From contig JASANH010001440.1 of NCBI GenBank assembly GCA_030248295.1, positions 1,044,501 to 1,108,500 of the forward strand: DNA of 64,000 nucleotides, in the 5' to 3' direction. Position numbers and translations under genes: made by a program. Below the pieces are notes generated by a model. It searched no databases and had not been told where the DNA came from. It was given only the letters and a program-made list of their open reading frames with translations. This DNA comes from Mesodorylaimus sp. YZB2_4. Lineage: Eukaryota; Nematoda; Enoplea; Dorylaimida; Dorylaimidae. Numbering within the stretch: position 1 is the stretch's first letter; every line of letters begins with the position of its first letter. Positions 19,691 through 58,825 of this stretch are shown here, in pieces.

Positions 19691-19696
19691 ACTTAC

Positions 19697-29168: not shown

Positions 29169-30927
29169 TCACATTACCCGCACAATGCCATCATATCTCA
29201 GAACGTATTTTGCGTACAGCCTCGAGAATTCTTCCATAAACACGAATAGAAGCACAGTTTGCGGTGCTACACGCGCATAAAATGGCCCAAAACCTTTCCA
29301 GAGGCTTGCCACTCCTTCGTATTTGATAATTTTTAACCATACGTCCTGTAATGCGCATTACAGTCACTCTAGAAAACCTTGCTGAAGGGTACTGTCGGCA
29401 CCTACCAAAGTATTTCTGTATAAGTGCGCCCCAGGAGCCAAATGCATGTTTTGCATTCTGGTTTTTGCGATATCTGCTGGAACACAGGCCACCGATGTAG
29501 CTAAACCGCTGCACAGGCTAGCCATGAAATGTGTGGTTATGGTGTCCTTGAAGTAGCCAGTGTCCATCAAAGATTCTTTAGCTTGCGAGTATGTCGCTAG
29601 GAGCGCAACTCCTGCCAATGTGGACCTCACAATGGTCGCTTCAGCGCCCTGGAAAAGACATTTTCTGGTACTTTGATCTCAACAAATTGGCATTTAATAA
29701 ATTACCCGCCAAAGGGTGAAAAACCCTTCATCTCTGACTATGCGATACATAGCTTCGATGACTCCGCTGTAATTTCGCCGCTGCTCCAAAGGCAGTCGAC
29801 CATCGACTGACATGCGTACCATGGCGATGTCTGGCGGCAGACTAACCAGCCCCGAAGTAACACCTGCAACCACACCGATGGCTGCTTTGTTTGCGTAAGT
29901 TGGTCGGCGCCCATCTCTGAAACATGCACTTGATGGTTGCCAAAAATGGGCAGAGAAACCGTCTTGAATGGTTATAAAATCAAACAAGTTAACCAAGATT
30001 GTCCTGGCATTATGCCCACTGTATTGTACTCTTGTAACATGCGCCTATCACCTTCTCTCTTGGCAGGCTGTCACCTCCTGAGTCGAGGGGTCCAACACAC
30101 GCAGGAGAATTCTCCAAGGAAGGGGTTTGTAACCAAGCCTGGCAGGCGAGGGAGGGAGGCGGCCTACCGAAGTCAGTGAGCAGGCAAGTCTTGCGACGAT
30201 ACCTACGGCTGAAACATTAACCCGAGGGGTTGACGTCTCCCAGCCAGCGAGAGTATCGATTACTCTCTCCCACTCGCCATGGCCTACCAGGCTCGAGGGT
30301 TACAGGTGAAAGGGCAGCTAGATACTCTAGGTGATGAAGCTACTCCTACTAATAGTACAGGTCAGTGCAAAATTAGCCCGACTGGTTGTGCCCAAATAGT
30401 GCCAGTCGATAGGCACAAACCCGTTAGCACGAGTTTCACCCTTCTTGCTAAAATCTGCCTGTGGTCTGTCAACTGTCTTTCTCGCCTCTCTTTAACGCAC
30501 TTTGATATTTCTTCTAGTAAGCAACTGTACGTCCCCATTCGAGTTGTGCCGTAGAGCGACTGTCGTAATAGCGATGCGGAGAGTCTGCAAAAGGTTTTAA
30601 TATCTGTGGCATTAAGTTATATCATGAAAACTATTCGAAGTATATGACCCTCGATAGATTGCACCAAAACCTTCCCGTCTGATGATGTAGAACAACGCGT
30701 GAAAACTTGACTTATACAACCGTGCCGCGCCCATTTCCCCACTCATTTGCATTCGATTTTTCAATAAATCCAAAGGATGCGTAAAACAAACAGCCGCCAT
30801 TCTAAAAACACAGCAGATTGTGATTTACACAAGAAAACGCTATCAAGGTATACCCTGCAAGTCCGCCGATTTGAAATTTTGCATAGTTTGGAATATGGAA
30901 TTCAGAGCGACCATGCATTCTGGCCAT
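29169..30927 (-). CDS. SLC25A11: Mitochondrial 2-oxoglutarate/malate carrier
   Basis: Inner-membrane antiporter of the malate-aspartate shuttle, exchanging 2-oxoglutarate for malate. Six exons, high to low: 30927-30854, 30801-30649, 30584-30501, 29916-29706, 29648-29406 and 29345-29169 (stop TGA). They total 942 nt and 313 residues (human protein 314), with all phases closing. The three carrier signatures are P34-L-D-L-L-K-N-R, P131-P-D-I-A-M-V-R and P231-A-D-I-A-K-T-R. SLC25A11-specific stretches include KFQIGGLAGMAA, SLLRQSLYGTTRMGTYS, VDGRLPLEQRRNYSGV and GPFYARVAPQTVLLF. The second signature has M where K/R is usual, as in the human protein, where the second repeat is also irregular. Two ATGs nine bases apart (30927, 30918) could start it. 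The third intron (29917-30500) carries a family C repeat, and the gene lies between large inverted repeats. Confidence 0.95.
30170..30290 (-). repeat. Dispersed repeat family C in a carrier intron
   Basis: On the minus strand it reads GATACTCTCGCTGGCTGGGA, GACGTCAACCC, TTAATGTTTCAGCC and CGCAAGACTTGCCT, matching 22043-22150. It lies in the third intron of the carrier gene. Confidence 0.7.
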
Positions 30928-34119: not shown

Positions 34120-37100
34120 TCAGGCCTTCCCTAATTCCAATCCTTTGTAAAAATAATAGGGCAAACTCGCCAATTCGACCATCGATATCACGCTGAGTCC
34201 AACCCACAATCCCAACTGATTCGCGAAGTCGGACAGAAATTCTTCCAACTGCAAAAAGGGGAATATATGGTATATGCAGCCAGATCCAACATCGGGTAAG
34301 GAAAGCGAACCTGACCCAACCCGAGACCTAAAATCCAAAACCCGAACCTGACCCGACTTTTTCCGACTCCCTTTCTACGATTTTTTTTAAGATATTGCTT
34401 TTTATCATGCTGAAGATGTATCTTCTGTATTTTCATGTTAATTTTATCAAAATTACGCGAAAAAAGTGGGCTATAAGCATTTTGAATTGTATCGGGAAAT
34501 TTTAGTCCATCTGTGAGTCATAAAAGTCGGGTTTTTGGTCCCGTGACGTTTCTTCCCACTTAATCGATTCCCACACTGCGTCGTTTCCCCCCACCGTACC
34601 TGGTGGGGGAATCGACTCACTGAGGCATGTGACGTTTCCCCTACTGCGCCGGTTCCCCCACCGTGTCGTTTCGCCCACCATAATTTTTCGCCTGATGTGC
34701 AGACACGGCTTGGGTCGCAACAGGCAGTACAACTGTGATAGGCTTGTACAATGTGGGAAGTGAAGTAAAATTTCGGTGCTGCAGCTCATGTGCAAGGTAC
34801 TCAGGCTACGAACTTTTTGGACTCCTTCAAGCATTTCAGGAAGGATATTTGACACGCTGCCAATACGAGTGAATTTAAGACCAGCCCAGTTTTCTCTGGT
34901 ATTCGAGACAGGGTTCAAATCGCAAATGTATTTAAAAACCGATCTGAGGGGTGAATCAGTTCCCAATCCGATCCGACTGCTGGATCGACAGGATTGGCAG
35001 CTGAAATTTTTGCTCTGTATCTGCTGAAGAATGATAAGGAGTGGCATTCTATGATGAGAAAATCCCGTTTTTCCTCTCAAATTAGCATTCAATCCCACTT
35101 TATGTTCTGCTTATCTCTCACCTGTGTCCTTTGGAGTAGACTGACAGAGTGACAACGAGGAAACATAGCAGATTGGCGAGGACGCAGTGCCAAGTACGTC
35201 ATCCCCATCGCAATTGAATGATAAAACAGCAAAATCGTGAACTATTTGAGGTATATTTCATATCTTCTAGGATTCATGATGACGATTTGTGCATGAGTGC
35301 TTTATTCTTAGACGACGGCTCAAAATTTGGATAGCCGCAGTTTTTCAAAACTGATGGTGGGGAAAAGACACGGTGGGAAAACCGTCACAGCGGGGAAACG
35401 ACACAGTGGGGGAATCGTCTCAGTGGGGGAAACGACCAAGTGGGGGAAACGTCTCACAATCGGGTTTTGGGGGGGTCAAAAATTAGAGCCCGACCCAACC
35501 CAACCTGAGAGAAATCAAACCCGACCCGAAACGAGGTTTTTTGGGTTTGGGTAAGGGTCAGGTACCTGATCTCAGACCTGGATTTGCAGTAAATACATAC
35601 ATACAGCTACGGCAATATGGATACTTACTCCAGTGATTCGCTCCTCTTGGTAGTAGACAAACATGCGTCTGTAAGCGTACACTTCAAGGACGCCGATGTC
35701 TTTACTAAAACAGGCATACTGTAGAAATAATATGTGAATGGGATGATCATGGTTCAACTTACGCCGAGGTTGCCGCTCCATTTAACGTCTTATATGGCTG
35801 AAAAGTAAAGCCGAAACATGCATTAAAGAATTAAGAGGCAAAATGTAACAGTCACATACTCCAGCCATTCGTATTTTCTTGTGTGATTCCACAAAATAAA
35901 AATCTCTCGACTCACATCGGCTGTCGCAGCTACAATTGAATTTCGGTAGCGACATTTGTAACAGCTTGTCGATGCACGTTTCTAAAAGTTTCAGTCAACT
36001 TCCTTTCATGGTCTTTTCATACAGTAAATAAAAGGTAAGCTACTTCGAGTAAAATTGCAAAATGTAGCATTTGGGAACGCATTGACATCCTGCGCTGGAT
36101 CAGTGCAGCCGCAAATTTTTAATGCCGCATTTTGGAAACATTTTTGGAAACAAGTCTACATCCGATATATAACAAATTAAATTGTGTCATTATCTTATTT
36201 CTGGGGCATACTTCTCTGTCATATCGGTTGCTAGAAGTGGCTTCATCAAAGACCCCATCCTCAGCATTGCACGACTTAATCTTTTGCCGTTCATCCTGTC
36301 ACGAAAAAAGAAACTTGGCTTTTCTCCACAAATCCAAGATAGGGCAGACTCACATAGGATATTCCCAGCGATGTGATCAAGCCTGGCGAAGCGATATGGT
36401 TTTCGACGGATGGTAGGATAGGCATCCCTCGATCACTGATCAACACTTGAATGCCTGCTGTGTCTGTCGTTGGTAAATATGTCTTCTGGTTGGCGTTGAA
36501 ATAAATACGCAGCCCTACAGTAGATGGAAATTGATCATTTAAGAAATGGATTTAAAAACTAGGTGGTAGCTGGTTGAAAAAAATAAAATGATACCTTTAT
36601 CAGGGCCCATGCCATAAACCAGTTTTTCTTCATTCAGGTAATGATTGAACGAGAAGCAGTTGCCCACGGACGTGGTGTACCACTGATAGAAGTCTCTAAA
36701 AGTAGAGTAGAGAACTGCTGCTTCCTTTTACTCCTCATATGCTAGACTTACAGTGAACAATTTTTCCCTCCGTAGTGACACATCAGCACAACTTCGTTGA
36801 GTTGGTACCCCATTTTGCTCTTCACGGATGATGGTAAATTGGCCAATAAATAAGGCATAGATGCTTGAATCTTGGTCGTCTTTGCTCGATCGTCCTTGAC
36901 AGACTAAAATTACACGTAGAAAATAAAATTATCTCAGAAAAATAGAAGCGGCTTAAAGGTTTGTAGCGACATACATGAAATGTTTCTGTCAAGTTTTCTG
37001 CGGGCACGTCGCAAACTAAAAGATGCTCATTTTTATTTCAAGTGGTAGGTACTGTATATTGTAGCTAGTAGCCCTCACTTGTAGCCAGTGTCTCCAGTAG

Positions 37101-40100
37101 GGTTTCAGTCGTCTTAATAACATCGTTAGACTCTGTCGGATGAAGCAATGCGATTATCTCGTTGAAACCATCGATCTTAATGGCAGGTGAAGCGGGAGCT
37201 GGTGGGGTTTGAGCAGTATTTTGTTCTGTCTGGTATGAATGCTTACCAATTCCATCAGTCGCAGATTCGTCTGCTAGATTCGCTGTTTCTTTCGTTGCAG
37301 AAGAATTGGCAAGTTTAGCTAGATAATCTGGGGATGAATTTGGAGCTGCTGTTGTGAATGGATTAGATTGTTTCCATTCAATTACTGCATCTGACCTTAT
37401 GCTAATTGGTCCTATTTTATTTTCAAATTCGACCTCTTGTATTTGGTTGCTACTAGTATCTGGAATTACTGGGCCTACTGATATAGGTTTTGCTGCGCCT
37501 TGCTCTACAGGCGGAATAAACGTAACTGTGCTCGCCAGCCTATCAGCATCCGATATCTGCTGTGATGCTGCTGTCATGATGGGTCCGAGTGCCCTCGTGT
37601 CACTGCCTGCTTGTGATTTGATGCTGGATGGAATACTAGGCCTAACTTCCAGCGGTGATGTCGAATCTAGGTCAGTTTCCCCTTCTTCCATAAACAGCGT
37701 TGCCATTGGTGAAGGTATAGCATTTGTGGTATGCCAATCAGAAAGTAATAACGTGGAAACAACATTTTCATGAGGATTTACTTGAGCGGTTGGTTTCTGC
37801 AGCACTTGCGTTTGTCGAGACATCATTTCAGGTAACACTTGCTGCTGCTCAAGGGTTGCTGCACTGCCGTATGCAGCTTTACTTAACTGGGGTTCAGAAA
37901 CACTTGAAGAATCAGATTTTGGTTTGATGCTTATAGTGCTCTCCATTCGTGACATTGATGAGGTTGCAGCTCCTCCTTCGATAGTTGCTCCTTTCATTTC
38001 TATCTGCCCTATTTCTCCATACGCTGTGCTTGAAAAACTTGAGACAGGAGCTTTTGCACTTGTTTCTATCCTGCTTTTTGGTGACGCTGTAACATTTGCT
38101 GCATGTGGTTGATCTATTGTGTGGTTGGAAACAACAGAAAAATTATCAGAATAGAGCGGGTTTGTTGTTACTTCATCAGGGGTTGAGAGTTTTGTCGAAG
38201 CATACTCTTCAACAGTGTTTGCTATTGATGATTCAGCTGCTACCTTTGTAACATTATGTGGTATAAGCCCCCTGAGAAAGGGGTTGCGACCACTGTGATT
38301 TGGTGAACTCACTAATTCTACTAGCAATAACTCAGTGGGCGAAATGGAGAAAGTCGACTGACTTGTTCCAAAGGCGCCAGATGCGTCTAAACCATTTGTG
38401 TTCGTGAAATACCTAAGAGAGTATGATGCTGAAGTCACAAGTGTTTGTCCAGAGGTCGATACAGGGTTCTGACCATGAGTGGTCGTCATTTCTGTCGAAA
38501 GGCTCGTGTGGTTTTCAGTGGGCTTAGCGTGTCCAGAAACCGTGCTGGCTGGATCCGTCGACAACTGTGTGGCAGGTGTTTGCATTTCTGCAAGTTTTTG
38601 CCCAGGCAAAAAACTGATGGTTGAGAGGCCCTCGTCAACGTCTTGATATGATAAAGCCGTTGGTGCGGCTGTTATAACAGCAGTAGGTGTAAGCGCTGCT
38701 GTGAGATTGTGGCTATGCAATGATGTAATATTGATCGCATCATCTACTTCCAATAACTGCGACGTCCCAGCTAAATTTGTTGTCATATGCTTAGAACTTG
38801 TTGAAGTCGATTGAGTAGCCTCCATATTAGAGAAGCTGGTCAGATCGTAAGCGTCTTGATTGAACGAAGTCGTCGATGTGGCTGCAGGGTCAAAACCTGG
38901 AGCTGCTGTCATGTTATGACGATGCAGTGATGTGACATTTATTTCGTCATCCTCTTCAAATAACTGCTGGGATGTACCAGATGGATACTTGTATGGTGCC
39001 GAATGCTGAATGCTCAGAATATTTACTGCGGTTTGCGCTGTGGCTGGTGGCAAGGTTGTTTTAGCTGATGAAGAAATCTCAAAGATTCTCTTTATTAAAC
39101 TTGTTGGCATATGTTTTGAGGACACTGAAGAAAAGCTAGTACTCTCTGTGGTCGGATTGGCAACTATTAGCTGGCTTTGCGATGACAGTGCTTTCAAAAA
39201 TTCCTGGTCTGAGTAGTTTGAAGAAGCTGTTGACAGTTGCGTGGCCACAGAGACAGTGGGAGTATCAGTTTGCGTTGATTCAACGTCCACGAATCCTGGT
39301 TTTTCTGAGTTATAATCTGTAAGCAAGAGGGAACTCATGGCCATATTTGCAGGCGTGTCCACATCATCTTCAGTTGTACTAATGGAGAGAGTACTCGCGC
39401 AGGAAGAGGAGATCTTGTGGACTGTAGCTGAGACAGGTGTCGTATTCTCATTAAAAGGTTTCGTGCTTGGGACAGATTTCACTTGAGATGAGAACTTCGT
39501 TTTCGATGTAGTCGATATCGTGCCAGTAGGTTTTGTTGTTTCAGTTGTCGCAGGTGTAGTTGCTTTCTTAGAAGATTGCATAACAGTCGAAAATGTTGCA
39601 GTTAATGGTTCTGCCGTTCGTGAAAAACTTTTACTGCTTGATAGCGGGGATGGTTTTAGTAAATCCGCCTTTTTTGTTTGTGTTTCGATAGCTTCTGACG
39701 TGCTGTAAAACTCTAAACTGTAAAAAACTGTAAAAAAGGTTTTTGATGGTTTAGCTGTAGAAGAGTCCGCACTGGAATTTGTGTGAGCTGCAAAGGAAGG
39801 TTTTGAGGCAGATGTAAAATTTGTGCCATCTAGGTTGCTTGTTTGACTTTCTGACGTGAACTCAGCAGGAGTCTGCATGGATGAATAGGTAGTACTGCGG
39901 GTGATGGAAGGTGGCGTTGATTGAACTGACTCAGATATTTTTGCTTTTTCAGTCATTGTCGAAGAGCTTTTAGGGGTATTTGTATAATATGAGGAAGAAG
40001 CAGAGACCAATGCTATTGGTGCAGTTGGTGCGACATCACTCGCTCCAGCCGACTGCGATGCTGACATTGTCGCCATCGGCTGTTTAGACGTAAATATCAT

Positions 40101-43100
40101 GGTGGAAGCCAATGACATTGCGTCGGTTATTGCATCAGAATCTAATGTTGTTTCCATATCAGATGCAGAAGAGTGCATACCGCTAGTCAACGCTGGATAT
40201 GCATTTATATTTTTTAAAGTAGGTTCTGATGTTGCTGTCGTCTTTTCGATGACTGGTACCGCCGAAGTAAATGTGAAGCCTGATACTTTTTCTGGTGTTG
40301 TCGAAGATGGCGGTGTAAGACTTGTGGATTCAATGGTTATTTCATTTAGCTCATCCAAGATTTCAGTCGTCAGTACCGCTGTAGAATGTGAAAACGAACT
40401 TGTTTCGAATGCAGCACTTGCAGTACCAGCAGGGATTGCGTTCTTTGCAGTCGAGCCGCTGCTCGCGACTGAATGTGAAGTAGCTTCTTGAGACACTGAA
40501 GTAGATGGTTGCCTTACTATTGTCTGTGATGTTGTGCTAGATGTACTCAATAGAACTGACGACGCAGTGGTTGCCCAGTTTTCCAAGGTCGACACATTCG
40601 ATTGATCAGAAGATACTATATCGGTGTATGATGGTGTATCCGCTCTTCTGCGTTGTGGCGACACAGACTGAGACGAATGTGTTGTTGAAGTCTCGGCCAT
40701 TGAGCTAACACTAGTTTGACCTATTGATGCAGCACTTGCTGTACTTTTGGGGCTAGTGCTAAATGTGGCAACTGACCACCCGCTATAGTTGCGTACAGCC
40801 TGGGTAGTAGCGCTGGGCAAAGTAGCTTCATCTTGCGGTGTCAAGGTGACTACGGGTGCAGCAGATGTAGGCGAACTGCCACTGTTGAATGCTCCAGACA
40901 GTGAAAACGTACTTGATGTTGAACTTGCCCTAGTTGATGAGTTGGTGGCAGATTCGACAGTTCTTGGAACGAAACCTGTTGAAAATGACTCTGTAACAGT
41001 TGATCGAGAAGTCGACTTGCCAACTGTTGTACTTTCCATCTGTATTTGCGGATCTAAGCTACTGAATGACAACGTTAGCGCCATGCCCATTGTTGCCTTT
41101 TTTGAAAATAGATCCATTCTAGCTGTGCTTTTTGGCATGAGAGATTCAGTTGCATCTTCGCTGTTACCTGGCGTTTTCATTGTCCCTGGACTAGTAGGCA
41201 TCGCATCAGTGGTCGAGCGCGCCTTCGCGTAGTCTGTTGTGCTTACTCCTGTGGCAGAACCAAATGAGATGTCTTTGGCGGTGGTCGAATTGTGACTATT
41301 TGTCATGATCCTTGATGTGATTGTGTTGCTTATACTGGGACTTACTGTTATTGTTCCTCGAAGAGTTGGTTCAGTTCTAGACCCTGATGTAAGGCCACTA
41401 ATAGTTGAATCTGTAGTTGGCAAGGTCTGTGATGTCGTTGATGTTGGAATTGCTGATGTCAGTGGCAATGACAGAGAAAATGATGCAATTGATGAAATTC
41501 CAGGTGTACTGATTGGGGCACTTTCAGACGATGTACGACTAATTGTAACTCCTGTTGCCATGGGTGCTGAAAGGGTAATGTTAGCTGATCGTGACACAAA
41601 GTTTGAGCGTGAAGCATCAGGAGTCGTTGACGTCAGCGGCGGTAATTGCATCAAACTGGCTCTTGTCGACGTCGACATAGAGGAAGCATTTCCCATAGTC
41701 GTAATGGTGCCACTAAATTTCTCGCTTGGTAGAGTGGAATCGGCAGGCAAAGGATAATTTGTGCTTGCGCTTCCAATTGATGCAAATGAGTTCGTTGATA
41801 TTGGCGATGGCGTTACCATGGAATTTGTTGAGGTGTTGCTGTGCGGCCCCGCGGATGCTGTTGGTATTGTTGAAGCATAGACTGTTGAAGATATGCTGCT
41901 TGCACTGGGAATGGTGATGTCTATCTTTCTTGTTGTCTCAGCAATCGATGTTCTCGCCGAGGCTGATGAAAAGATGCCTGTGGCGATGGTTGGAAAACTC
42001 ACTGCTGATGATGTCGAACCTGCAATTCGGATTATGTTTGTAAAATATTGCTGTAGACTGGTGTTCATAAGTCTCTAATTACGTGATCATATGCCACATG
42101 CCATGCATTTGGAAACAGAAATGCCCAATGCTCCTTCCACTACATTGTAATTGTTAGCTCCCAGCTTGACTAATCACACAACATGTCCGATTAGTTTTGA
42201 TACACGGATAATCGTTCTTACTTATCACGGAAGAATAACTCTTTAACGATCCAGTTGTTCTAGAAATTGCTTCGGCTGATGTACCTGCAAACATTTATAG
42301 ATGACTATGAAACTCTGCTAGGACAGATAGATGAATGAGCGTACCATGAAACGTTTCCACTGATAATGTTGGTAACATACCTAAAGAAAGACAACAGATG
42401 CTAAAAAATTCGGAATAAGTGTTCTTGAGTCATACTGGTAAAACCCGCAAGTGCAGACGTTGAGGTGGATGAGTATGAAGAGGTCGCTGTGGAAGTTTGA
42501 AGTGAGCTTTGATGAGCAGCGAATGTTGAAGAAGGCGGCTGTATGGAAGTTGTTACATTAGTTGACTTGGAGGAGGTGGATGATCCCATTGAGCTTGATA
42601 CTTTCGTTAAGGTTTGGGAGGGGGACGAATGTGGGGAAACTGATGTTATGGTCGAATGTGAGGAGAAAGAGGAACCAGACGACACTGAGGTTGGATGAGA
42701 GGCAGTTGATACAATGGCTGGGTTTGAGGAGGCTGCCACAGCAATCGAGTATGGGGAGATCGAAACCACAGTAGGATGTGAAGTGCTTGACGCCATAGCG
42801 GGACTCAAGGAGGTTAATACTATGGTCAGGCTTGAGGAGGCCGTCACTGCGGTCAAGTTTGAGGAGGTTGAAACTGTGGTAGGGCGTAAAGATGTCATCA
42901 TCATGGGGGGGTTTGAGGAGTTTGACACGATGGTCGAGTGAGAGGATGTTGGTACTGCAGCTAGGTTTGAAGCTGTTGATCCCACAGTTGAGTTTGAGGA
43001 AGCTGATACTATGATCATGTTTGAGGAGGCTGTCACGACAGTGGAGTTTGATGAGGTTGAAACTGTAGTAGGGCGTGAAGACATCGCCACTGCGGTGGGA

Positions 43101-46100
43101 TTTGAGGAGCTTGGTTTTGTGGTTGGGTGGGAGGATGTTGTTACCACACTTGGATGTGAAAATGTTGAAGCTACTGTTGTTTTTGAGAAAGCTGATACAA
43201 TGGTCATGTTTGAGGAGGCTGTCACAACAGTCGAGTTTAAGGCGGTTGAAACTGTAGTAGGGTGTGATGATGTCGTCATCACTGTGTGGTTTGGAGAGTT
43301 TTGTTCGATGGCCGAGTGAGAGGATGTTGGTAACATTGCTGGCTGTGAAGCTGTTGATGCCACAGTTGGGTTTGAGAGAGTTGGTGCAATGGACATGTTT
43401 GAAGAAGCTGTGACTGTGGTTGAGTGTGAGCAAGTTGAAACTGTTGTAGGGTGCAATGATGTCGCCACAATGGTGGGGTTTGAGGAGTTCGATAGTGTGG
43501 TCAGGTTTGAGGAGGTTGAATCTGCAGTATGGCGTGAAGATGTCATCGTCATTGTGGCGCTCGAGGAGTTTGATACCATAGTCGAGTGAGAAGATGTTTG
43601 TGGCATAGCTGGGTGCGCAGATGTTGATGCCACCGTTGGGTTCGAGTAAGTTCGTACTATTGTCATGTTTGAGGATGCTGTCATTGTGGGTGAGTTTGAT
43701 GAGGTTAAAAATGTAGAAGACTGTGAAGACGTCGCCATTGCGGTTGAGTGAGAAGAGGATTTTGGTGCCATGGTTGCTGTTTGTGTGAATGTTGTTATCA
43801 TGGTCGCCATTGTCGTGTTTAAAGATTTTGACGCTGTTGTCAGGGTTGCGGATGTTGTTACAACAGTCGGGGTTGAGGAGGTTGATACCATGGTGGACCG
43901 CAAAGAGGTTGACTCAAAGGTCGAGCGCTGAGACGATGTCATCGCAGTTGTATGTGATAAGCTTGTGGGCATTTCGAATGATGAAACTGATGTTGTTGTA
44001 GAAGGTGTCAGCCTCAAGGTTGATGGTACTAATCTTGAGGTTGACTGTAAAGTGGTTGAAACAGACGATGCGGAGGATGTAGTTAAAGGAGCTGTTGTCA
44101 CAGGAACTGTACTGGCAGAAGTCGTTGATGCTGATGTGCTTGTTATTTCTAGCATAAAGTTTGGGACTGCGTCAAGTTCAGGGCTGAGTTACTTTGAGGA
44201 AGGTATATTGGTCAAAAACTTATAGACAAGCAGCTTGAAAACTTTGTTTCAGGTGATGAAGAAGAGAGGGCAAAAGGGGTGGGTATTTTTGGTGGGGTTG
44301 TACATAACTAGATTGACCAGAGGCCGTATTCCAGAAGCGTTTTCTAGCGAGATTTTCCAGGGAGGTGACTGGATTCTAGTTAGATGACTGCGTTTGCTAT
44401 TACAGAAACAATTACAGTCACATAGTTCCATTCACTGAGCCTAATAACACAGTCACTCAGAAAAAATACCTAAAAAGCTATTCCATAAAACTTTGTCGCT
44501 TGGAAAGTCCAGTCAACTATCGAAGGTGGCTTGGAAAAATCTTCAAGTGCTCTCGATCGCCTGAAACTGTTTTCCAGCGAGCTTTTACCCTATATTAACA
44601 GTAGAGTTTTGCCGTGAGTTGTCCCAATGGCAAAGCCGAGATATGGCGGTCAATGTGTGGGGGGGGGGAGGATTTTTTCAGGTTTCCAATTAAAGTAAGG
44701 AGGTGAGGGAATTTTAGGACCACAGATAAACACTTCAGCAATTTCGAAAGTGGATAACTGCCCAATTGATTAGGCACGTGCTATCGATGCAGCAAGTGCG
44801 TCTTTAGCACGAGTTCGGATCTGACTGTAGAATAAAAGAAAGACTGATCGTTTTACATCCACATACTGTACTGTAATGTTTGTTTCGAATGATTTTCTGC
44901 CTGGCCTTAGTGGTGTTCAGCTTGATTTTGACATCGATCGGGCGATCCAAGTGGTCCAGGTGGTCAACAGTCCAGGCAATAGACAGATCCTCTGCACTTC
45001 AAAAAGAGGAAGAGCTTCAACCTTCGATGACAATTCAAACGTGATAAGCACATGTTCAATTCTCCCACCCAGCTTCACAAGCATAACATTCCGTAGATTC
45101 CCTTATACCTCACAGGAGAAGTTTCGAGGGGCTGGCTACACTCCTGTGCATATACTCTTGAGATGAAACATTCGTACTTTTGTTTGGCACTTGCAGCTCT
45201 CCTAGAAGCGTCATCAAAAAGGGGAAGAATTCATGAAAGAAGGTGTGAAAATTCAGAAAAATTAATGTAGGAAGTGCAGGAGTAGGAAGGAATAAACGTG
45301 AGAGAGAGGGGGGGGGGGGGGGGTAAGAAAGAAAAGAAATCATGACCTGCAATTTATTTTCTCTACTTTGTCGCTATTTTCCAGTTAGCTTTCAGGAATA
45401 CGGCCTCAGGTTTCACATTACTGACAAGGAACTAACTCCCTTTAGTGCATTTGTTGGCAGGACAAGTGATAAATTGAAGGGGTACTAAAATAAAAATTTT
45501 TAGTTTTTCTTTGCTCATGATGACTTTGTACAATTGTCAAGCATTGCTCCCCACTCAAAATGAGCAGTCCTGCAAATGATCACATGGACAAAGGTTCTGC
45601 GATCTTAAAAAAACTGAATAGCACACTGCTTCATAGAAAATCATTAAACAATTTTTTCGCAAGATGTGGTTTAATAGACCCAAGGGTAGTCCCCAAGGGT
45701 CGTAAAATACCCTCTGTAAGGTCAAATATTTCAAAGGTTTCCCGATAAAAACAAACCTTACCTGAGTCGCATCTCGTAGTAAATGATGGCACTACACATG
45801 AGGGCTCTAAAAATACAAGTCAACCCTGTCTGTGGGTATTGTAAACAAAAATTTCAATGACAGAGCTCCAAGCATTTGAAAAAACATTTGAACCCCACCA
45901 GACTACATACATTATGTAACAGCATATTCGCGTGCAATAACGCGTGCGTTGGCCATTATGCTGTAGATCTTCACTCTTGGTGGTGATACCAACATCTGCT
46001 CCTCTAAACTGAGGGGCGCCATAAGATGGCGTTGAAGTGGGGCCGCTTAATATACTGTATGTACATATGCTGTTCGAGAATTGCTCTTTCCGTCCCATTC

Positions 46101-48012
46101 TTAGTACACTTTTTGAGTAAAAGCTTGGCAACGTTGCACCAAATCTTATTAAAGCCAGTCCTTGATTTCTCATAGCCAGGTTCCGTCCTCAGTGGTGTGG
46201 CATCAGGAGGGCGTGGTGTCTCGGTATCAAGGACTTCTTATTCTTTTGAGGACTATTCAAGAAAGGAACGAAAATTTCGTCACCGAGTAGCGACTCAACT
46301 TTCTTTGTTAATTTTTTTAATATCTCAAGACACTAGCGACAATCCATCTGAAAAAGTTCCCGGTAGGAGCGAGCCGAGCCATTTGCTTTCCTGTAGTTCT
46401 GTGACGGGCGTAGTGTTGAGCCACTCATGTCGCGCCTGCAACCAGAGGGCACACGCAAAACTCATCTTCATTACCCTACATGTATATCATAAAAAATCTA
46501 TTCTTCTTGTTGGTTTTTGGCTGATTGTGGATCTCATTTGAGTCTCTCGCGCCGCGGCCGCGCCCTTGGCCTGTCTAGCTAACGGAAATAGTTTCCTGCC
46601 AGCCTAACGCCCTGCCGTTTTCTTTGTTTGGTAGATCCTTCATGATATGCTTGTGGCCACCATCATGGGATGGTGGCCACAAGCATATCATGCGTGCCCT
46701 TTACTTTGTGTTTTGTTTAATTCTGTTCCTTGGACTTTTCTTTGGATTTGGGAAGCCGTGGTTGGCCTAACATAGTTCGTTTTACTTATGGCCCTGCAAA
46801 GGTATCATCGTATTCCTCCAAACTTTTCCCACAGAGAGAGCAGGGCGGCTTTGCACGGCGCACACTGCATTAAGCCATGGAGCCCATAGAGCGCCTATAC
46901 AATGTCCATTCATCGTGTTTCTTGCTGATGATTTACCATGTCAACGAAAGCGGGTGTGCACACTCGAGGAAAGGGACAAATTATACAAGAAATTATTTCC
47001 TCGGTCGCGAGCCGAACATCAGCTGGCTATTGTTCATCTTTCTTTCACGAGTGAAAAGATCAGTGCTCTCACAATGGCATGCAACTCAAGGCGTTGGGCG
47101 CGTGCGAGAATTTGAACAGGTTTGGGCATCGTACAGTACATATGAACTTTCCATCCCCTTTTTGTGCGTATTCTTTCCTTTCCTTTCTTGCAAAACAATG
47201 TATGCTAACAATAAAAAAATTTTTAAAAAAAGATCAGTGCTTTCGGAAAAATAATTTTCTAAATTTCTTCTGTGTCTGCTCTTGGGTCTTCAGCCTCCCC
47301 ATCCAGCATCGGCTCAAATATACTCATTGGAGCGAAAACGTACCAACATGAATTTTATTAGAGTATTTTAGAAGTTTATAGACCTATGCAGTCTATCCAC
47401 TTTCCCCTCCAATCCTCTTGACATCACGTCAGTTTTGATTGGTCATGGTTGAACTGGCTTCACAAATAATTTTCATAACAAGAAATTATAGCAACTTACG
47501 TGACCTCTTGACTCGCCCGTACGCTGATTTTTCACTCTGCTCTTTCTCATTCTCAGTCTTTACATTTGATGAATCAGTATCTGCGCTTCGCAAATTCTAG
47601 AAAAAAAACGAATAAAATCCATTTATCGCGTAATTATCATCCACGATCTTGCCTACCTGATCATTTGTGGTCAACGCTGAGAGGGAGTCGCGTTTGTAAG
47701 GATTCAAGTTGCAGATGGTGACAGTGGGAAAAGTCAGTGCTGGTTGCTTAATCTGGAAAAATCTCGAATTCGCAATTTGTCTTACAATTAGTTCAGTATT
47801 TGCTTCTGCTGAATTCGCACAAGTGTCAAACTTACGGCAACTGCAACATAGATATCTTCATTCAAGTACGCCAACAGCGTCTGCGTCGTCATGTATAAAC
47901 AAATGGCCGTCATTCCAAAGGTGACACTGGCCCAAGATATTTTCCAGACTTTGCTCTCACGTTGATTGCTAACGAGTAATCGATCGAATGAATGCTTTTC
48001 GTGCTGCGGCAT
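34120..48012 (-). CDS. DEG/ENaC-family cation channel with a ~2,250-residue Ser/Thr-rich (mucin-like) insertion
   Basis: Eighteen exons, high to low: 48012-47836, 47752-47657, 47596-47500, 45806-45762 (tentative), 44148-42436, 42380-42345, 42284-42222, 42019-37079, 37015-36975, 36903-36752, 36695-36595, 36514-36354, 36295-36212, 36155-36044, 35981-35860, 35797-35763, 35704-35629 and 34248-34120. The sum is 8181 nt and 2726 residues; all phases close. Residues 1-59 hold the cytoplasmic N-terminus and TM1 (no HG gate motif seen). FPTVTICNLNPYKRD opens the finger domain, and R119-V-K-R122 is furin-like. Residues 124-2389 form the insert, followed by ICDVPAENLTETF, GYQLNEVVLMCHYGGKNC, SVGNCFSFN, GLRIYFNANQ, TAGIQVLISD, ETCFQKCFQN, ICGC, FNCSCDSRC and FLSDFANQLGLWVGLS (selectivity filter G-L-S, TM2). 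Family members are trimeric Na+ channels gated by protons, peptides or force. The main uncertainty is whether one transcript joins all parts. Confidence 0.8.
34261..35580. mobile_element. Foldback-type element in the last DEG/ENaC intron
   Basis: The last intron (34249-35628) is almost filled by a mirror structure. Outer CCCGACCC/CCCGAACC words lie at 34296-34360 and 35488-35570. Inner arrays of ~20-bp units of the form GTGGGGGAAACGACAC are found at 35350-35455 and, inverted, at 34545-34685. Tandem units in inverted orientation at both ends are the hallmark of foldback and some hAT-derived elements. No transposase frame is visible in the ~650-bp centre. Confidence 0.65.
44321..45407. mobile_element. 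Element with GAGGCCGTATTCC terminal inverted repeats
   Basis: GAGGCCGTATTCCAGAA at 44321-44337 mirrors the end at 45391-45407 with one mismatch, giving a 1.09-kb element. It sits in the DEG/ENaC intron between 45761 and 44149. It contains poly(G) runs at 44659-44668 and 45308-45323. A 96-codon open stretch at 44876-45166 resembles nothing I know. No clear target duplication was found. Confidence 0.65.
46641..46692. repeat. Perfect 24-bp hairpin with 4-nt loop
   Basis: 46641-46664 and 46669-46692 are exact reverse complements around ATGG. The arm contains GCTTGTGGCCACCATC. It lies in the intron upstream of the Ser/Thr-rich cassette. Confidence 0.92.
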
Positions 48013-48046
48013 CTTTGAATGCGTGAAATGATCCGGAGTTGTGTCT

Positions 48047-48053
48047 TCTTATA
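48047..48053 (-). promoter_or_regulatory. TATA box of the DEG/ENaC gene
   Basis: The minus strand reads TGTATAAGA about 40 nt before the ATG at 48012. That leaves a 5' leader of only about 10 nt if transcription starts 30 nt downstream. The same arrangement, GTATAGAAG before ATGCCGCAT, is kept in the degenerate upstream copy. Confidence 0.5.
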
Positions 48054-48639
48054 CAGCATAGACGGGTCTGTAACGCTAACGATAAGTCTGACAGTTTGCA
48101 GCCACCATGTGGGCTTAAAACGTAGGATGCGGCTGATAAGGGCACTAGGGAATCCATCATAGAATTTTCCCCTTTTCCTATGGAAAATAATTGGACAGCG
48201 ATTGATTTAATGATGCACATCCATTGTTCAGATAATGGGTCTACCAACCGTCCATTAGTAGACCAGGTCCAGGTCAGGCTTTTTGCACTCGAACGTGGGC
48301 GGGTCAATAGATTTTGGCATAAGCTATGGCCAAGTACAGTCTTGACTCGTTAAGCAAGTTACGACGCTCGAAACTTTTGATTGCTCGCGTAGGTCTACAT
48401 AAAAACTGAATGAACGAGCGAGGAAGTTCTTCCGAATTTCATCCGAGATAATATTTAAATGAGTTTTAATATAACTACGTGTTAGGTGTTATTTTCGCTT
48501 TTTTAACTTTTTGTGTCTTGGATCAATGTGGGTGCAGCAGCAGGCAAGAAAAATTTATACAGGGTGCATACATTTTGACGAAAGTAAAACCATATCGCCT
48601 GCAGGACAAATTTATGTCGCTTATACTCCGACTTGAAAT

Positions 48640-48835
48640 TATGAGCTAAAGGTCCACCTAGCGTCCCGCTTGGTAAATTATCGGCTGCTGCAACGAGGAA
48701 ATGGCCAGCGGAAAACAAATCCCAAATTCGTTGGGGACTGATGAGTAATCGGTCAAATGACTGTTTTTTCGTTATGCGGCATCATTGAGTCCGTGAAATA
48801 GTCGGGGGGTCTGGCTTCTATACAGCTTTGACGGG
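48640..48835 (-). pseudogene. Degenerate copy of the DEG/ENaC promoter and first exon
   Basis: On the minus strand 48835-48722 resembles 48070-47955: a TATA-like GTATAGAAGCC, then ATGCCGCATAACGAAAA, then a frame-shifted match to SFDRLLVSNQR (here SFDRLLISPQR). After that point the similarity to the channel fades and the TM1 sequence is replaced. A single-base shift breaks the frame shortly after the ATG. It is best read as a partial upstream tandem duplication that has decayed. Confidence 0.7.
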
Positions 48836-51787
48836 CCTTTCATGCCAAGTCAGACAGCTTGCAGTCACCAAATGGACTCACAATCAGAACTTGGGGTCCG
48901 TCGTTTGGGGATATCCTTGAAGTTTTGCTCTTGTTTTATGCTTTGGTTTTGCTCTTGTTTGCTCTTGTTGTTTTGGTTGTGGTTTTGCTCTTGTTTTATG
49001 CTTTACGTTATACCTTATGTGGCTTGCTGTCCCAGAGTGCAATCAATATGTTTCGGCAAGAAATAGATAGATAGACAGATAGAAGTCAGAAACGGGCTGC
49101 CTTTAGCAGATGCGGATTTCTATTCATATGCTACCTCGAATCTCTCGACAACTTGATGAGACTGCAAAAGTGCCAAAGCTGGAAAAGCATGCGCATGTTT
49201 AATTTTTATCCACCTACTGATCGTTTTCGTGTCATTGCTGCGGCATTTTCAAACGCACTTTTCAGCGACAAACACGCTCATTGGCTGACCAAAACCCAAA
49301 AAGCGAAGAGACGCTGCAAATGTCTTGAAGGGGTGTTCCCGATAGAGAAGTTAGAGGGAGTGCCTGGTTGGCCGGATCTAAGCTCCCTTAATCATTTCTG
49401 GACTCCATCAAACCTGGCCTTGCGGAAACAAAACGATAGAACCAGAAGCAATATCTCTTCTCAACTCTGGTGCTTTAAGTACTGCAGCACGGACGAAGTA
49501 AAGCAATGTTCCGTTATCCACTCCTCTAGCTGAAGTTCTCAGGTAATTATAGCTGCGTCAAAGGAAAACACAAGTTAGACTAACAAGGACCTGACGCTGA
49601 GGTTACTCGTGAACATCACCTTAATTTCGCACAATTTACTGTATCGATTCAAAAAATCATGGACTATGTCCACTTGGTGATTGTTGACACATTTATTCTA
49701 ACCTTTGCAAATTTCTTTTTGCGAGCAGTATTTTAATTGTGGACATTGTGGCTATGGTCTCAAATTGCTTTTTAAATCTTTATGGTCATATGGTCCAAGT
49801 ACGTACATGAAATCTTCGTGGTCTATAGATCTTTTGCCCCATAGACGCACGCTTGTTAGTTGGCCCGACGTATGTCCGTCGTCCCTCGAATGCAAGTATG
49901 CTCGTTAATCGTGTGGTTCAAGGAGCCTAACTGGTCTTTTTTGAACAGTTAAGGTAGATCTTTCGAAATCCATGGCTTTTTGCGTATGTGCGGACAAATC
50001 AGGTCTGTGCGGAACATCCAAGCTCAACAATCAGATTAAACGCAGATGCCCAGAGGAAAAATCAAAATAATGTCGGTTCTTTCAGCTAAATTACATCCAT
50101 CTTCGCTAATGGTTTTCTATCATAGCGACTGCAGTAACCTTTGTGTGTGTTAACTTGTCGTGAGAAGTTTCGCCGTGGGTTATGTTTGTTCCTACTGTGC
50201 ATTATCCGGAGGCTTTATCTGCCTCTTCTGATTCATGACATTTGAACATTTCGTCTATTCAAAAGCCCTTTATACACAAGGAGCTGACATTTTGTCGATG
50301 TTACCTGATATCACGCATACGCACTATGTACCTAGAAAAGCATTATCACAAGAGCTCCTGTCTTACAATATGCTTCAATTTCCTTTTTCTTATGAATCGA
50401 GACCAGACGTTGTTATTTCTTGTGAGGAGACCATATTTTCAAGGTGAAATTTAAAAAATTAACGCGCTGATGTTCGAACGGACTAAATCGAATCAGTTAG
50501 AGTCCGCCGATTGAATACAAAAAGTGACGCCCATAGGCAAGCAAACTTGCTTTTGCGGAGCATATGAGTGAAGAGACACGTTGTCAATACAAAATGAGAA
50601 AACCTGCACGTCATGCATTCCTTTCATTTTTTTGAGCGGGACACTAAGAAAAAACAGTGAATCCTCCAGTGCACTTGAACACCCCTGGTGCAAACTCACA
50701 ATCAATAATGGAGCCCTGTCCTTTTCGGTACATTTTTCCATTTCCACTTATGATGCTTTTCAGGGTAAACTTGGGTCAGGGAAAATTTTTGTACTGCATG
50801 TACAGTCCTTTTCATACATGTATCTGCAGGATCAAGCATCTTAGGGAGCGGGGTTCCGCCTAAATTTTGCCACTACATTTGCATCAGATCTCGCCATCAA
50901 GAAAAAACTCGCGATCAGTCTTGGCATGATTCCGCTGTCGGACAAGCGAGAATAGAAGCCAGTACGGGCGTACACATACAATACTCATATTGATTTTGAA
51001 ATTATTTCCTCCACCCGTTGCCTGCACAAAAGCCATGAGTAAATCGTGGATAAAAACTTTAGCACCTCATTGATTTCAATTATAAATATGAATGCGTAAA
51101 CGTGTCCCTACTCTCACCGATTAGGCGCAGTTCCATAGATGCGTTAGAGCACTTCCCGGCATTTCATTTTTCACGCTGCACCTTTTTCGAAACCGGCAAC
51201 CAGCTGTTATCTGCCACGTGTCGATGATTAATAATCGTGTGTATTCCATGAATATTTTCATACGGTTTTTTCCTAACTAGGAAATATGGGACAAACAGAG
51301 GCAGCTGCTCACTTTTCCCCTGCACGCCTTTTAAGATTGTTTCTATGAAAGCCTTAAGTACGTTCCTTGCTTCGCCCTTCGAATAATGACTCCTTTGTTT
51401 ATTGATCAAGCACGTGTAATAGACCCAAGTTGTAATATAAGAAAGCATACTGGCGCAGGCCTTGCGTGAGAAGGCAGCCAGATTATTGTATTAGGCCAGT
51501 GCAAGCTTCCGTTCCGCTAGGATCACAAGTTATCTGTTCGATCCGCTGATCCATCGTCTTTTCCTGACGGAAGTGCTACGAGGTGAATTATTTGCTCTGG
51601 GTCGGCTGTCCCTCGGAGTGTTGTGTTTCCTCAGTGACGGTTCCTCTGTCGGGGTACAATATTTTCGATCCCCGAGTGGAAATATTGTAGCGGCAAAGAA
51701 ACACACCTTCCTGCTGCTAATTATATCTTAATAATTATATCACTCTGTCTTTGGGTCTGAGCTCGAATATACAGCACTTGTCCGAGT
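48836..51787. other. Intergenic, no gene supported
   Basis: 2.9 kb. A direct repeat of GTTTTGCTCTTGTTTTATGC occurs at about 48931 and 48984, and a short GATA-rich run lies at 49066-49085. An open stretch at 49153-49533 has no recognisable features. Nothing else stands out. Confidence 0.5.
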
Positions 51788-52831
51788 ATGTCTGACAACA
51801 GCACTTGTGCTCTAGGCGAGACTGCACTTTCCATCGGAAATGGTTTGCATAGGTTCGTATTCTTTTATTACTTGCCATTTTATTATATTGTAGGTATAGG
51901 ATCTAATATTGTTCTTCTGGTAGCATTCTATCGTAAATCTAAAACTCAATCCGCTTATGTCTATCAAGTGTTGCTAACCTCGAGTAAGACAGTCGAGATT
52001 CTCGTTTACGGAGCCCTTTTGTTTTTCCTCTTTTGGTGGTCGGGTATATACTTTCCGGATGACATATCGGATTGGTTTTTGAGCACACCCGCATTTTTAT
52101 TCATTTTATGCCGAATTCTGGACCCGGGTCATATGCAGTGCATTTTGATGTCGTTGTTCTTGGCCGTTGCAATGTCTGCTGATCGAGTGTTTGCATTGAC
52201 CTGGCCCTTCACCTATAAGAATATCAATCATAAACGCCATCAAATAGTGGCCGCCGTAATCTGTACCATGCTCCCCATCCCTATCGCTTTTGGCTACTTA
52301 GGTTGGTGGACGTACAGACGAGAAGGGGATCACTTCAAGGGCTATGTGGACGATGCCTGGTTCGCTCAGCCTTACCCGAGAGGGGCTGCTCTAACTGGCA
52401 TAGCTACCCGACTGACATGCTGTTTTGCCCTGGTAACTTTGAACTTATTTTTAGTAACAAAATTTCGAGCACAAAAATCAAAAATAGGTCAAGCAGCGCT
52501 AGATTCGAAAGAATTAGCAAAAAAAGCTGCTGAAAGGACTATAATTCTTCTAAATTTATATCAATCGATTTTGATGTGTCTGAATCAAATGCCTCACGCA
52601 TTTCTGCACCTATTTGTCTCAGTAGCCCCAGATCTCGATGCTTGCTTTAGTCCCCTCACCCATCCTCTGGCTGACTTTTGTATCCTGCTAACTGATAGTT
52701 TAGACCTGTTTTTCATCATGGCTATAAACAAGAAAACGCGCCAAATGATTTTTAAATTGTTTCGTCGTTCAAATTCTGCAGCTACCTCGCAGTTTTTTAG
52801 CCGTACAGGCCAGAGTGTACACCATAAATGA
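51788..52831 (+). CDS. Rhodopsin-family G-protein-coupled receptor, intronless
   Basis: A 347-residue seven-span receptor in one exon; ligand unknown. The N-terminus has an N-glycosylation site (NST, residues 4-6). TM1 is about 28-48 with the conserved Asn in GSNIVLL. TM3 ends in D132-R-V (DRY variant) followed by FALTWPFTYK. TM4 is about 152-172. An Ala/Lys-rich third intracellular loop (KELAKKAAER) precedes TM6. TM7 (about 291-313) has DSLDLFF in place of NPxxY, then helix-8-like NKKTRQMIFKLF. The layout is that of the divergent peptide-receptor-like GPCRs abundant in nematodes and other ecdysozoans. The ATG at 51788 is the first in frame. Lack of introns, unlike its neighbours, is usual for such expanded families and may reflect retroposition. 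Confidence 0.92.
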   Translation: MSDNSTCALGETALSIGNGLHRFVFFYYLPFYYIVGIGSNIVLLVAFYRKSKTQSAYVYQVLLTSSKTVEILVYGALLFFLFWWSGIYFPDDISDWFLSTPAFLFILCRILDPGHMQCILMSLFLAVAMSADRVFALTWPFTYKNINHKRHQIVAAVICTMLPIPIAFGYLGWWTYRREGDHFKGYVDDAWFAQPYPRGAALTGIATRLTCCFALVTLNLFLVTKFRAQKSKIGQAALDSKELAKKAAERTIILLNLYQSILMCLNQMPHAFLHLFVSVAPDLDACFSPLTHPLADFCILLTDSLDLFFIMAINKKTRQMIFKLFRRSNSAATSQFFSRTGQSVHHK

Positions 52832-57556: not shown

Positions 57557-58825
57557 TCACTCTGTACTGCACACTATGTCAATAAATTTAAGGACACGTC
57601 TTTTAATATTCGGATCACTCAGTTCGGCTGTCGCCATTCTGCCAGTTCCCTCAATAACATCTCTAGCCAGTGGTGTGCCCGCCTGTGAGTCGTGTTTCAT
57701 CTCATCGTGTACGTAGCCCAAATTTGGACAATCCACTTTCAAGAGCTTGCAAATTTCTCTGACGTAGGGCTTTGCATCAATAATCAAGTCCTCGAAGAAG
57801 AAGATATTATCAAAAGGAAACTTGGACCGTTTCAGTTTCAGCTCCCTCTCAGCCCAAAATTTGCTCGTGAGTTCCGTCAGGGTATTTTGAAGCCCAGCCT
57901 TCTTTGCTAACTCTTGAATTTCATTGGGAGACTCAAAAACTTGCAGCCTGGTCATGCGCAGCAGCCAGGGGAAATTGGCTCCTAAATATACTTGCATGAC
58001 TACAAATCCTAGGCGCAAGGCCTTGACATAGGAGGCGATCGTGTCCAATTTGTTTCGCCTACCCAAGTACACGTGTCGAATGTGAGGCAAGTCTCGCAAG
58101 CAACGATGCAAAGTGTCCTCCCGCAGCATAGTGGGCTTGACCAAGACGGCTTCAACATCTGGATACGATCTGAAATAGACTTTGAGAAGGCTTTTCACGA
58201 TGGCTACTTTCTCGTCTGTGCTTGCTTCTGTATCGTACTCGACTTCCCAAAAGTTTGCGGGAGGTTCGCTCAGACACATGATTTTAGGATTTGCTTGAGC
58301 CACCAATTTCGAAAGCAAGGTCGAGCCGCATCGAGTACCGTGCCATAGGAAAACCACTGGACACGTCAAACTGCTGCACTTTTCGGCTAGTTTATGCAGT
58401 TCTGAAATCGGAACTTGAATGGTTCGAATGGCTTCTTCAAAAATATTAATCTGAGACAATGGTGCTGTTACACTACCGTAGGCCCGGAGAGGTTTTGGCA
58501 ACTCGACGAAGACAATGTATCGGCAGTTCACATAGTAAGGAATGATTCTATCGTTTTCGGGTCTAAGTATCTCCTTCGGCAGAGCAAAGCGTTCAAATTT
58601 TAAAATAAATTGATTAGGATGCGCGACGTCATAATAATGCCGGGTAAAACGAAGAATGATTTTAGATACGATGGCCACCGGTTGCGAGTCGATGAACGGC
58701 GTGTGGGGCTTCCGAAACTTTGCCGATATAGAATCAAAGAAGTGGTAGATAGAACGCATGTATAGAAATAATGCGGACAGTAGATGATTGCAAAAGAGCA
58801 ACAATACTTCTGTTATGCTGTACAT
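57557..58825 (-). CDS. Golgi-type sulfotransferase
   Basis: Transfers sulfate from PAPS to an acceptor, probably a glycan, in the Golgi lumen. A single exon of 422 residues, counted from the ATG at 58825. I chose that start because it places a hydrophobic segment (EVLLLFCNHLLSALFLYMR, about residues 6-25) at the N-terminus as a type II signal anchor. An open frame upstream lacks ATG. The 5'-phosphosulfate loop is WHGTRCGSTLLSKLV (about 162-175). The 3'-phosphate-binding strand and helix is HVYLGRRNKLDTIAS (about 252-265), with the conserved Arg and final Ser. A C-terminal FEDL / Y-V-R-E-I-C segment fits the usual lid. Acceptor specificity cannot be told. The compact, intronless structure contrasts with most genes here. 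Confidence 0.85.
   Translation of the reverse strand: MYSITEVLLLFCNHLLSALFLYMRSIYHFFDSISAKFRKPHTPFIDSQPVAIVSKIILRFTRHYYDVAHPNQFILKFERFALPKEILRPENDRIIPYYVNCRYIVFVELPKPLRAYGSVTAPLSQINIFEEAIRTIQVPISELHKLAEKCSSLTCPVVFLWHGTRCGSTLLSKLVAQANPKIMCLSEPPANFWEVEYDTEASTDEKVAIVKSLLKVYFRSYPDVEAVLVKPTMLREDTLHRCLRDLPHIRHVYLGRRNKLDTIASYVKALRLGFVVMQVYLGANFPWLLRMTRLQVFESPNEIQELAKKAGLQNTLTELTSKFWAERELKLKRSKFPFDNIFFFEDLIIDAKPYVREICKLLKVDCPNLGYVHDEMKHDSQAGTPLARDVIEGTGRMATAELSDPNIKRRVLKFIDIVCSTE

Follow-up and report, generated by a model that had tools for sequence, protein, structure and literature searches.

We analysed a window of 64,000 nucleotides from contig JASANH010001440.1 of the nematode Mesodorylaimus sp. 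YZB2_4 (assembly GCA_030248295.1), which carries on its minus strand, between positions 34120 and 48012, a gene for a predicted channel of the DEG/ENaC family. We rebuilt 18 exons (Table 1), running from an ATG at 48012 to a stop at 34120 with every intron of the GT-AG type; their coding sum of 8181 nt gives a product of 2726 aa plus the stop. The exons, closed splice phases and coding length proposed in an earlier sequence-only reading of this DNA were reproduced exactly, as was the 63-nt intron between its large exon and the following channel exon. The gene model was built from the sequence alone, and the architecture was tested on paralogs within the same genome.

Residues 1-123 of the predicted protein comprise the first transmembrane segment (TM1), the palm strand FPTVTICNLNPYK and the basic site RVKR, with TM1 and FPTVTICNLNPYKRD encoded by exons 1-2. 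Residues 124-2389, which the last part of exon 3 and all of exons 4-8 encode, form a Ser/Thr-rich insert of 2266 aa. The remainder of the DEG/ENaC ectodomain and the second transmembrane segment (TM2) are encoded by exons 9-18. The presence of a mucin-like tract in a predicted channel is thus confirmed at this locus, and we are highly confident of the overall architecture, namely a mucin-like tract within the finger of a DEG/ENaC protein.

Table 1. Exons of the channel gene and other features of the window
Feature	Positions	Strand	Basis
Exon 1: initiator ATG, short N-terminal cytosolic part (HS at the position of HG in gamma-ENaC), TM1	47836..48012	-	model, alignment
Exon 2: palm strand beta1 FPTVTICNLNPYK, onset of finger helix alpha1	47657..47752	-	helix by alignment position
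Exon 3: region behind alpha1; sole strict furin-type site of the protein, RVKR/S at 47515-47504	47500..47596	-	
Exon 4: short Cys-x8-Cys element PSCVVPSFTTRC ahead of the mucin-like tract	45762..45806	-	
Exon 5: Ser/Thr-rich tract 1, ~570 aa, with in-frame 189-nt repeat array at 42817-43489	42436..44148	-	
Exon 6: 36 nt, in-phase; weakest exon (donor outscored by 244 of 662 GTs)	42345..42380	-	
Exon 7: 63-nt Ser/Thr exon, in-phase	42222..42284	-	
Exon 8: Ser/Thr-rich tract 2, ~1647 aa; Ser+Thr ~40-47%, dropping to 21% in the direction of its end	37079..42019	-	
Exon 9: linker ICDVPAENLTETFH; phase-0 end, same as tract/channel junction of paralogs	36975..37015	-	
Exon 10: finger helix alpha2, first ectodomain cysteines CHYGGKNCS	36752..36903	-	helix by alignment position
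Exon 11: DFYQWYTTSVGNCFSFN	36595..36695	-	model, PF00858 match
Exon 12: ectodomain	36354..36514	-	model, PF00858 match
Exon 13: ectodomain	36212..36295	-	model, PF00858 match
Exon 14: cysteines TCFQKCFQNAALKICGC	36044..36155	-	model, PF00858 match
Exon 15: cysteines NCSCDSRC	35860..35981	-	model, PF00858 match
Exon 16: ectodomain	35763..35797	-	model
Exon 17: final ectodomain part ahead of TM2	35629..35704	-	model
Exon 18: TM2 with GLS (GxS-type filter), stop	34120..34248	-	model, alignment
Candidate alternative first exon (speculative): ATG, hydrophobic signal-like stretch, donor phase compatible with exon 5	45436..45518	-	
GH30	758-1219		Pfam
OATP transporter	6011-6649		Pfam
Serpin-like frame with long Gln-rich stretches	13774-14475		PF00079, 1e-12
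Forkhead	19613-20344		Pfam
Mitochondrial carrier	29694-30044		Pfam
Srx-type 7TM receptor	51761-52831		Pfam

When the insert was left out, the protein matched PF00858 (ASC) with an E-value of 4.5e-58 and 197.8 bits (cut-off 23.6), over positions 15-453 of the 455 of the profile. The nearest solved relative of the channel part is human gamma-ENaC (2e-26). TM1 and TM2 flank one large ectodomain, and both ends align to gamma-ENaC, the TM2 piece weakly (11.7 bits). DEG/ENaC proteins, which serve touch and salt transport, form trimeric amiloride-sensitive Na+ channels. The motifs of the family include a GxS filter in TM2 and an HG gating motif before TM1, the latter not being needed for a match to the profile. 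The palm-strand motif FPxVTxCNxNPY is present as FPTVTICNLNPYK and the filter as GLWVGLS in exon 18, while the residues aligned to the HG of gamma-ENaC are HS. By sequence assignment the gene is a complete DEG/ENaC subunit of the degenerin type. The degenerate HG motif suggests a modulatory subunit, and the protein may act as such in a heterotrimer.

Residues 7-96 of the window protein align to residues 39-124 of gamma-ENaC, and the alignment resumes from about residue 2421, matching gamma-ENaC from residue 236, so that the insert point corresponds to the unaligned stretch 125-235. In the excerpts of PMC6197857, from which we also took the limits of alpha1 and alpha2, these two helices enclose the GRIP domain, and the first furin site borders it N-terminally. 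Judged by this alignment, the insert occupies the GRIP position of the finger, between alpha1 and alpha2. The strict furin-type pattern [RK]x[RK]R occurs a single time in the 2726 aa, as RVKR at the N-terminal edge of the insert; a pair of protease sites flanking a releasable tract, as in ENaC, was not seen with this pattern, which covers strict sites only.

Composition, splice sites and coding evidence

The insert contains 21.6% Ser, 17.1% Thr (Ser+Thr 38.7%) and 6.6% Pro, with four cysteines and 37 N-x-S/T sequons. Mucin-like (PTS) domains are recognised by a rule of 40% Ser+Thr and 5% Pro, and 977 of the 2167 windows of 100 aa across the insert reach both values. All the tandem repeats that we found lie in exon 5, namely an array with 3.6 copies of a 189-nt unit and units of 27 nt; exon 8 gave none. 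Neither exon 5 nor exon 8 matched any Pfam family at E<=0.1. The tract is mucin-like by composition, and its O-glycosylation is putative.

Splice sites were scored with a matrix built from the 11 introns outside the tract and compared with the 662 GTs and 845 AGs of the gene region. The donor of exon 3 was outscored by 6 GTs and the acceptor of exon 4 by 3 AGs; at the other border, 14 AGs scored above the acceptor of exon 9. Inside the tract, the donors of exons 4, 5, 7 and 8 were outscored by 39, 32, 28 and 87 GTs, respectively, and the acceptors of exons 5, 6, 7 and 8 by 86, 30, 126 and 103 AGs. The donor of exon 6 was weak (Table 1), and omitting this exon preserves the frame. By these ranks, the outer junctions of the tract are good, the inner ones are middling, and the 36-nt exon 6 is the least certain.

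Between exons 3 and 9 every intron is in phase 1, which makes the tract a symmetric cassette; consequently, any or all of exons 4-8 can be skipped in frame, and long and short forms of the subunit are possible.

On both strands of the whole window, only three stop-to-stop frames of at least 120 aa have at least 28% Ser+Thr. Two of them are the tract exons and the third is 124 aa long; because such frames are so few, the tract is not a product of chance. Units 189 nt apart in exon 5 differ at codon positions 1-3 by 0.51, 0.38 and 0.53, position 2 being the least changed, and the contrast within the repeat array itself is small (0.23, 0.21 and 0.31). The codon-position pattern is weak support for coding, and the open length is the stronger point.

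Relatives in the same genome

The genome (145 Mb) was searched with the two channel halves of the window gene, and relatives were found whose halves lie 6-7 kb apart. At C10 the space between them holds a frame of 1657 aa with 51% Ser+Thr+Pro, and at C612 a frame of 1293 aa with 42%; in both, the exon order is that of the window gene, on the same strand. Three further paralogs, whose channel pieces we read by eye from open frames, combine palm strand and tract in one open frame. That of C86 spans 1813 aa and includes the palm strand FPAVTFCNLNPYKKS, a KRKKR site and the Ser/Thr-rich tract, followed by channel pieces in order down to a TM2-like frame with GLFLGVS. In C81 the shared frame is 1665 aa long, with downstream pieces recognised as far as the cysteine-rich thumb part only. 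At C14:711 kb (L063) it is 923 aa long, and the pieces reach a TM2-like frame with GLFTGVS; a C-x9-C element precedes this tract, similar to the Cys-x8-Cys of exon 4 in the window gene. The best-scoring in-phase joins to the alpha2 exon imply introns of 206 (C86), 64 (C81) and 58 nt (C14:711 kb), all in phase 0, as is the exon 9/10 junction of the window gene, which lies at the same place. The frames of C86 and C81 each have one [RK]x[RK]R site, near the frame start.

As palm strand and tract share one open frame in C86, C81 and C14:711 kb, the tract of these paralogs cannot be a neighbouring gene. This bears on the possibility that the window locus holds a separate mucin gene nested in an intron, with its own mRNA ending at the TAG at 37067-37065 and the channel spliced from 47500 to 37015. 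Such a splice would be in frame (phase 1 on both sides), an AATAAA follows the TAG within the 63-nt intron, and the signal-like ATG exon at 45518-45436, whose donor is fair (27 of 662 GTs higher), could start a secreted form. However, the one-frame paralogs speak against it, C10 and C612 likewise have the tract between the channel halves on the same strand, and the window gene has a usable exon 8 donor 11 nt before the TAG and the high-ranking exon 9 acceptor described above. We consider a nested mucin gene highly improbable. The sequence-only reading had named a separate mucin ending at this TAG as the case that would overturn its proposal; the one-frame arrangement rules this out for the three paralogs, not for the window locus itself. 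Its structural claim, a mucin-like tract inside a DEG/ENaC finger, was upheld by the same paralogs, and the location could be sharpened to the GRIP position. The roles it suggested for the tract, in sensing shear or strain or in shielding from proteases, are hypothetical.

The phase-1 exons also raise the prospect that both forms exist, with alternative splicing yielding short, ordinary subunits as well as long, mucin-bearing ones. The uniform 1-1 phases and the weak donor of exon 6 are consistent with this, but a tract that shares its frame with the palm strand, as in C86, C81 and C14:711 kb, cannot be skipped alone, and we regard the production of both forms as somewhat unlikely.

The degenerate pattern CNxNP[YF] gave 71 matches in the genome versus 8 for a reversed control pattern, pointing to roughly 60 degenerin-type loci, of which the window gene is, on sequence grounds, one family member. 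For 35 of the 71 matches we checked the presence of a tract: the window gene, C10 and C86, 12 chosen loci, and a random 20 of the remaining 56 (C612 is outside this motif list). A long Ser/Thr-rich frame, judged on Ser+Thr+Pro, was found at 9 of the 12 chosen loci, a biased set picked mostly for a 3' channel match some kb away; L060 (32%), L065 (31%) and L066 were not counted. L066 (C1:1175300-1177200) encodes a degenerin in which the position of the insert is taken by a Cys-rich region with a short Thr run, preceded by an RTKR site, and perhaps represents an older state.

In the random sample, a genuine palm motif lay within an open frame at 18 of the 20 loci (L073 had none, and L074 was a chance match). 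Eight of these 18 (L070, L071, L072, L076, L081, L082, L083 and L085) had, within about 2.2 kb downstream, a frame of at least 120 aa with at least 28% Ser+Thr, and ten did not; at several loci such a frame stands behind a C-type-lectin-like domain. The antisense control gave 0 of 20. L076, L081 and L082 are weak cases (30-33%). The palm frames of L071, L080 and L085 are shortened, maybe those of broken genes, and two of these loci, L071 and L085, count among the eight. Of the 18 palm-strand frames that continue for at least 80 aa past the motif, 14 include a strict furin-type site. We rejected the idea of a single freak locus, given the 71 versus 8 motif matches and the tract frames at many palm loci.

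Large "open frame" figures between split PF00858 hits (C223, C215 and others) were rejected as a sign of an insert: six of ten such loci had a frame of at least 250 aa, and the longest frame of each was a channel piece lacking a long Ser/Thr tract. A local cluster of degenerin genes is found on contig C290, where 114 kb contain seven palm-motif matches. In the genome we found no SL1 sequence within two mismatches, and 133 cuticle-collagen N-terminal matches, as would suit a nematode that probably lies outside the groups with SL1.

In several family members the basic site is followed by a Cys-rich domain some 150 aa long, which we recognised by eye. A profile of six such domains matched 19 PDB sequences at E<=1, all of them C-type-lectin-like by name; the best whole-sequence E-value was 2.3e-8 (LY75, which has many domains, no single stretch of it passing) and the best single-domain value 6.4e-4. 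The six members gave no match to Pfam. When one such domain was searched against the genome, 8 of its 9 matches had a palm motif no more than about 320 bases upstream. In the window gene, no C-type-lectin-like domain was seen behind the furin-type site. Degenerins with both a C-type-lectin-like domain and a Ser/Thr-rich tract in the finger slot are L057, L059, L061, L067 and L072, and C281 (L040, L062) seemingly has two lectin-like domains in series.

As for the surroundings of the window gene, a diverged tandem duplicate of the exon 1 region lies upstream (48743-48878 versus 47974-48115; 74% over 143 aligned columns), and its reading frame soon ends. Intron 17 (1380 nt) contains GGGGAAACGACACAGTG-type inverted repeats about 0.7 kb apart (34555-35456), which make up a foldback-like insertion separating exon 17 from TM2. 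Besides the neighbours in Table 1, the window has Gln-rich frames at 12106-13924, next to the serpin-like frame, and two frames (57557-58891 and 62516-63400) with no Pfam match at E<=0.01.

Possible roles of the tract

The best explanation, which we hold with slightly less than even confidence, is a DEG/ENaC subunit whose tract of about 2270 residues in the GRIP slot serves as a built-in brush or tether loading the finger. On its way through the secretory pathway, the chain would be cut a single time by a proprotein convertase, at RVKR. Since a second strict site is lacking, the tract would stay joined to alpha2 instead of being excised as in alpha- and gamma-ENaC. Its free end would reach outward as an O-glycosylated brush; mucins measure about 0.25 nm per residue, which would give about half a micrometre if the brush were extended. 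Drag on it, or its binding by cuticle, mucus or matrix, would then pull on alpha2 and the finger-thumb gating unit. Such a tract would be a built-in tether and might also screen the finger from proteases.

Precedents exist for parts of this scheme. Added N-glycans raise the shear response of delta-ENaC in a matrix-dependent manner (abstract of PMC7958617), and plasmin, for which the finger has predicted sites, raises MEC-4(d) currents (excerpts of PMC8223032). By analogy, these make a tether mechanism reasonable without showing it.

Several points weigh against the tether. Support for both the fusion and the brush is at the sequence level only, and functions as a shield, a decoy or an adhesion brush would fit the sequence equally. 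With HS in place of HG, the subunit might conduct poorly. Over the C-terminal third of the tract, 100-aa blocks contain only 21-33% Ser+Thr, and this part is perhaps not mucin-like. Codon pairs of the repeat array are 68 alike, 28 silent and 65 of 161 residue-changing, which makes the codon test weak, and at lag 378 it is codon position 1, not 2, that differs least. The frame at C14:711 kb lacks a strict furin motif, while the tract frame of C10 has two near its start and the 420-aa frame upstream of it has one. Finally, the window gene has the signal-like alternative first exon.

One alternative is that the tract acts as a glycocalyx-type shield or decoy against proteases and microbes, on membranes facing the gut, the excretory system or the cuticle, with no part in gating. 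The size of the family would suit such a role, and so would the combination of similar tract compositions with a lack of BLASTP matches between the window tract and the tract frames of five paralogs (a weak test, SEG masking being on). Conversely, the tract interrupts the ectodomain in its gating part instead of lying at an end, and a furin-type site near the tract edge is common; we judge a pure shield unlikely.

The lectin-like domains suggest instead a set of receptor-channels, whose pores would be gated when these domains and the mucin-like tracts, both placed in the GRIP slot, capture glycans or microbes; the window gene would be a lectin-less member. Lectin-like domains behind the basic site of many paralogs, the profile matches to C-type-lectin-like structures and the adjacency of eight of nine genome matches to a palm motif argue for this, whereas the absence of such a domain from the window gene and of any Pfam match for the six members argues against it. 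As an account of the window gene it seems to us quite unlikely. For the family as a whole, we can propose, as a possible if doubtful view, a lineage-specific set of tens of self-tethered receptor-channels that use the GRIP slot as a docking place for mucin-like or C-type-lectin-like adhesive modules, singly or one after the other and mostly headed by a furin-type site; a cut at this site would leave the module on alpha2, and pulling on the module, or its binding, would gate the pore.

How DEG/ENaC channels sense force is an open question, and pull through matrix tethers is debated. If the tether explanation holds, a channel with a huge extracellular brush built into the gating part of its own chain would allow the question of tethers to be tested on a single polypeptide, by cutting, shortening or anchoring the brush.

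Comparison with known systems

Among open-licence papers we found no degenerin channel with a mucin-like or lectin domain, in agreement with the earlier statement that no channel of this form had been described. Membrane mucins and polycystin-1 are membrane proteins with a long ectodomain, in polycystin-1 with a C-type lectin domain; they differ from the window gene in not being DEG/ENaC proteins and in having no insertion inside the finger of a trimeric channel. The EGAS proteins of C. elegans are reportedly DEG/ENaC channels with acquired extracellular EGF-like modules, and we know of no mucin-like tract or lectin-like domain in them. Both they and the window gene would have gained extracellular modules, EGF-like there and mucin-like here. 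In the excerpts of PMC8144518, a degenerin and a C-type lectin are separate proteins.

The window gene resembles nematode degenerins such as MEC-4 and UNC-8 in several respects. MEC-4 is said to have the palm strand NLNPYK and, in the same region as the insert, a short Thr-rich stretch with a dibasic site. That region reportedly measures about 300 aa in MEC-4, compared with 2266 aa in the window gene, which lacks a Cys-rich domain. A further point of comparison is the action of protease on these channels, for which plasmin sites are predicted within the finger (excerpts of PMC8223032).

With vertebrate alpha- and gamma-ENaC, the window gene shares the fold family, added residues between helices alpha1 and alpha2, and a furin-type site at the N-terminal border of these residues. 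In ENaC, the GRIP domain is small and made of beta strands; two cuts, both required for activation, free an inhibitory tract from it (excerpts of PMC6197857 and PMC8791634). In contrast, 2266 residues, for the most part Ser/Thr-rich, fill the same slot of the window gene, and the strict sites number just one. The family as a whole would indicate that entire foreign modules can be accepted and retained in the slot that ENaC uses for protease gating, and that the finger helices alpha1 and alpha2 can be far apart in sequence.

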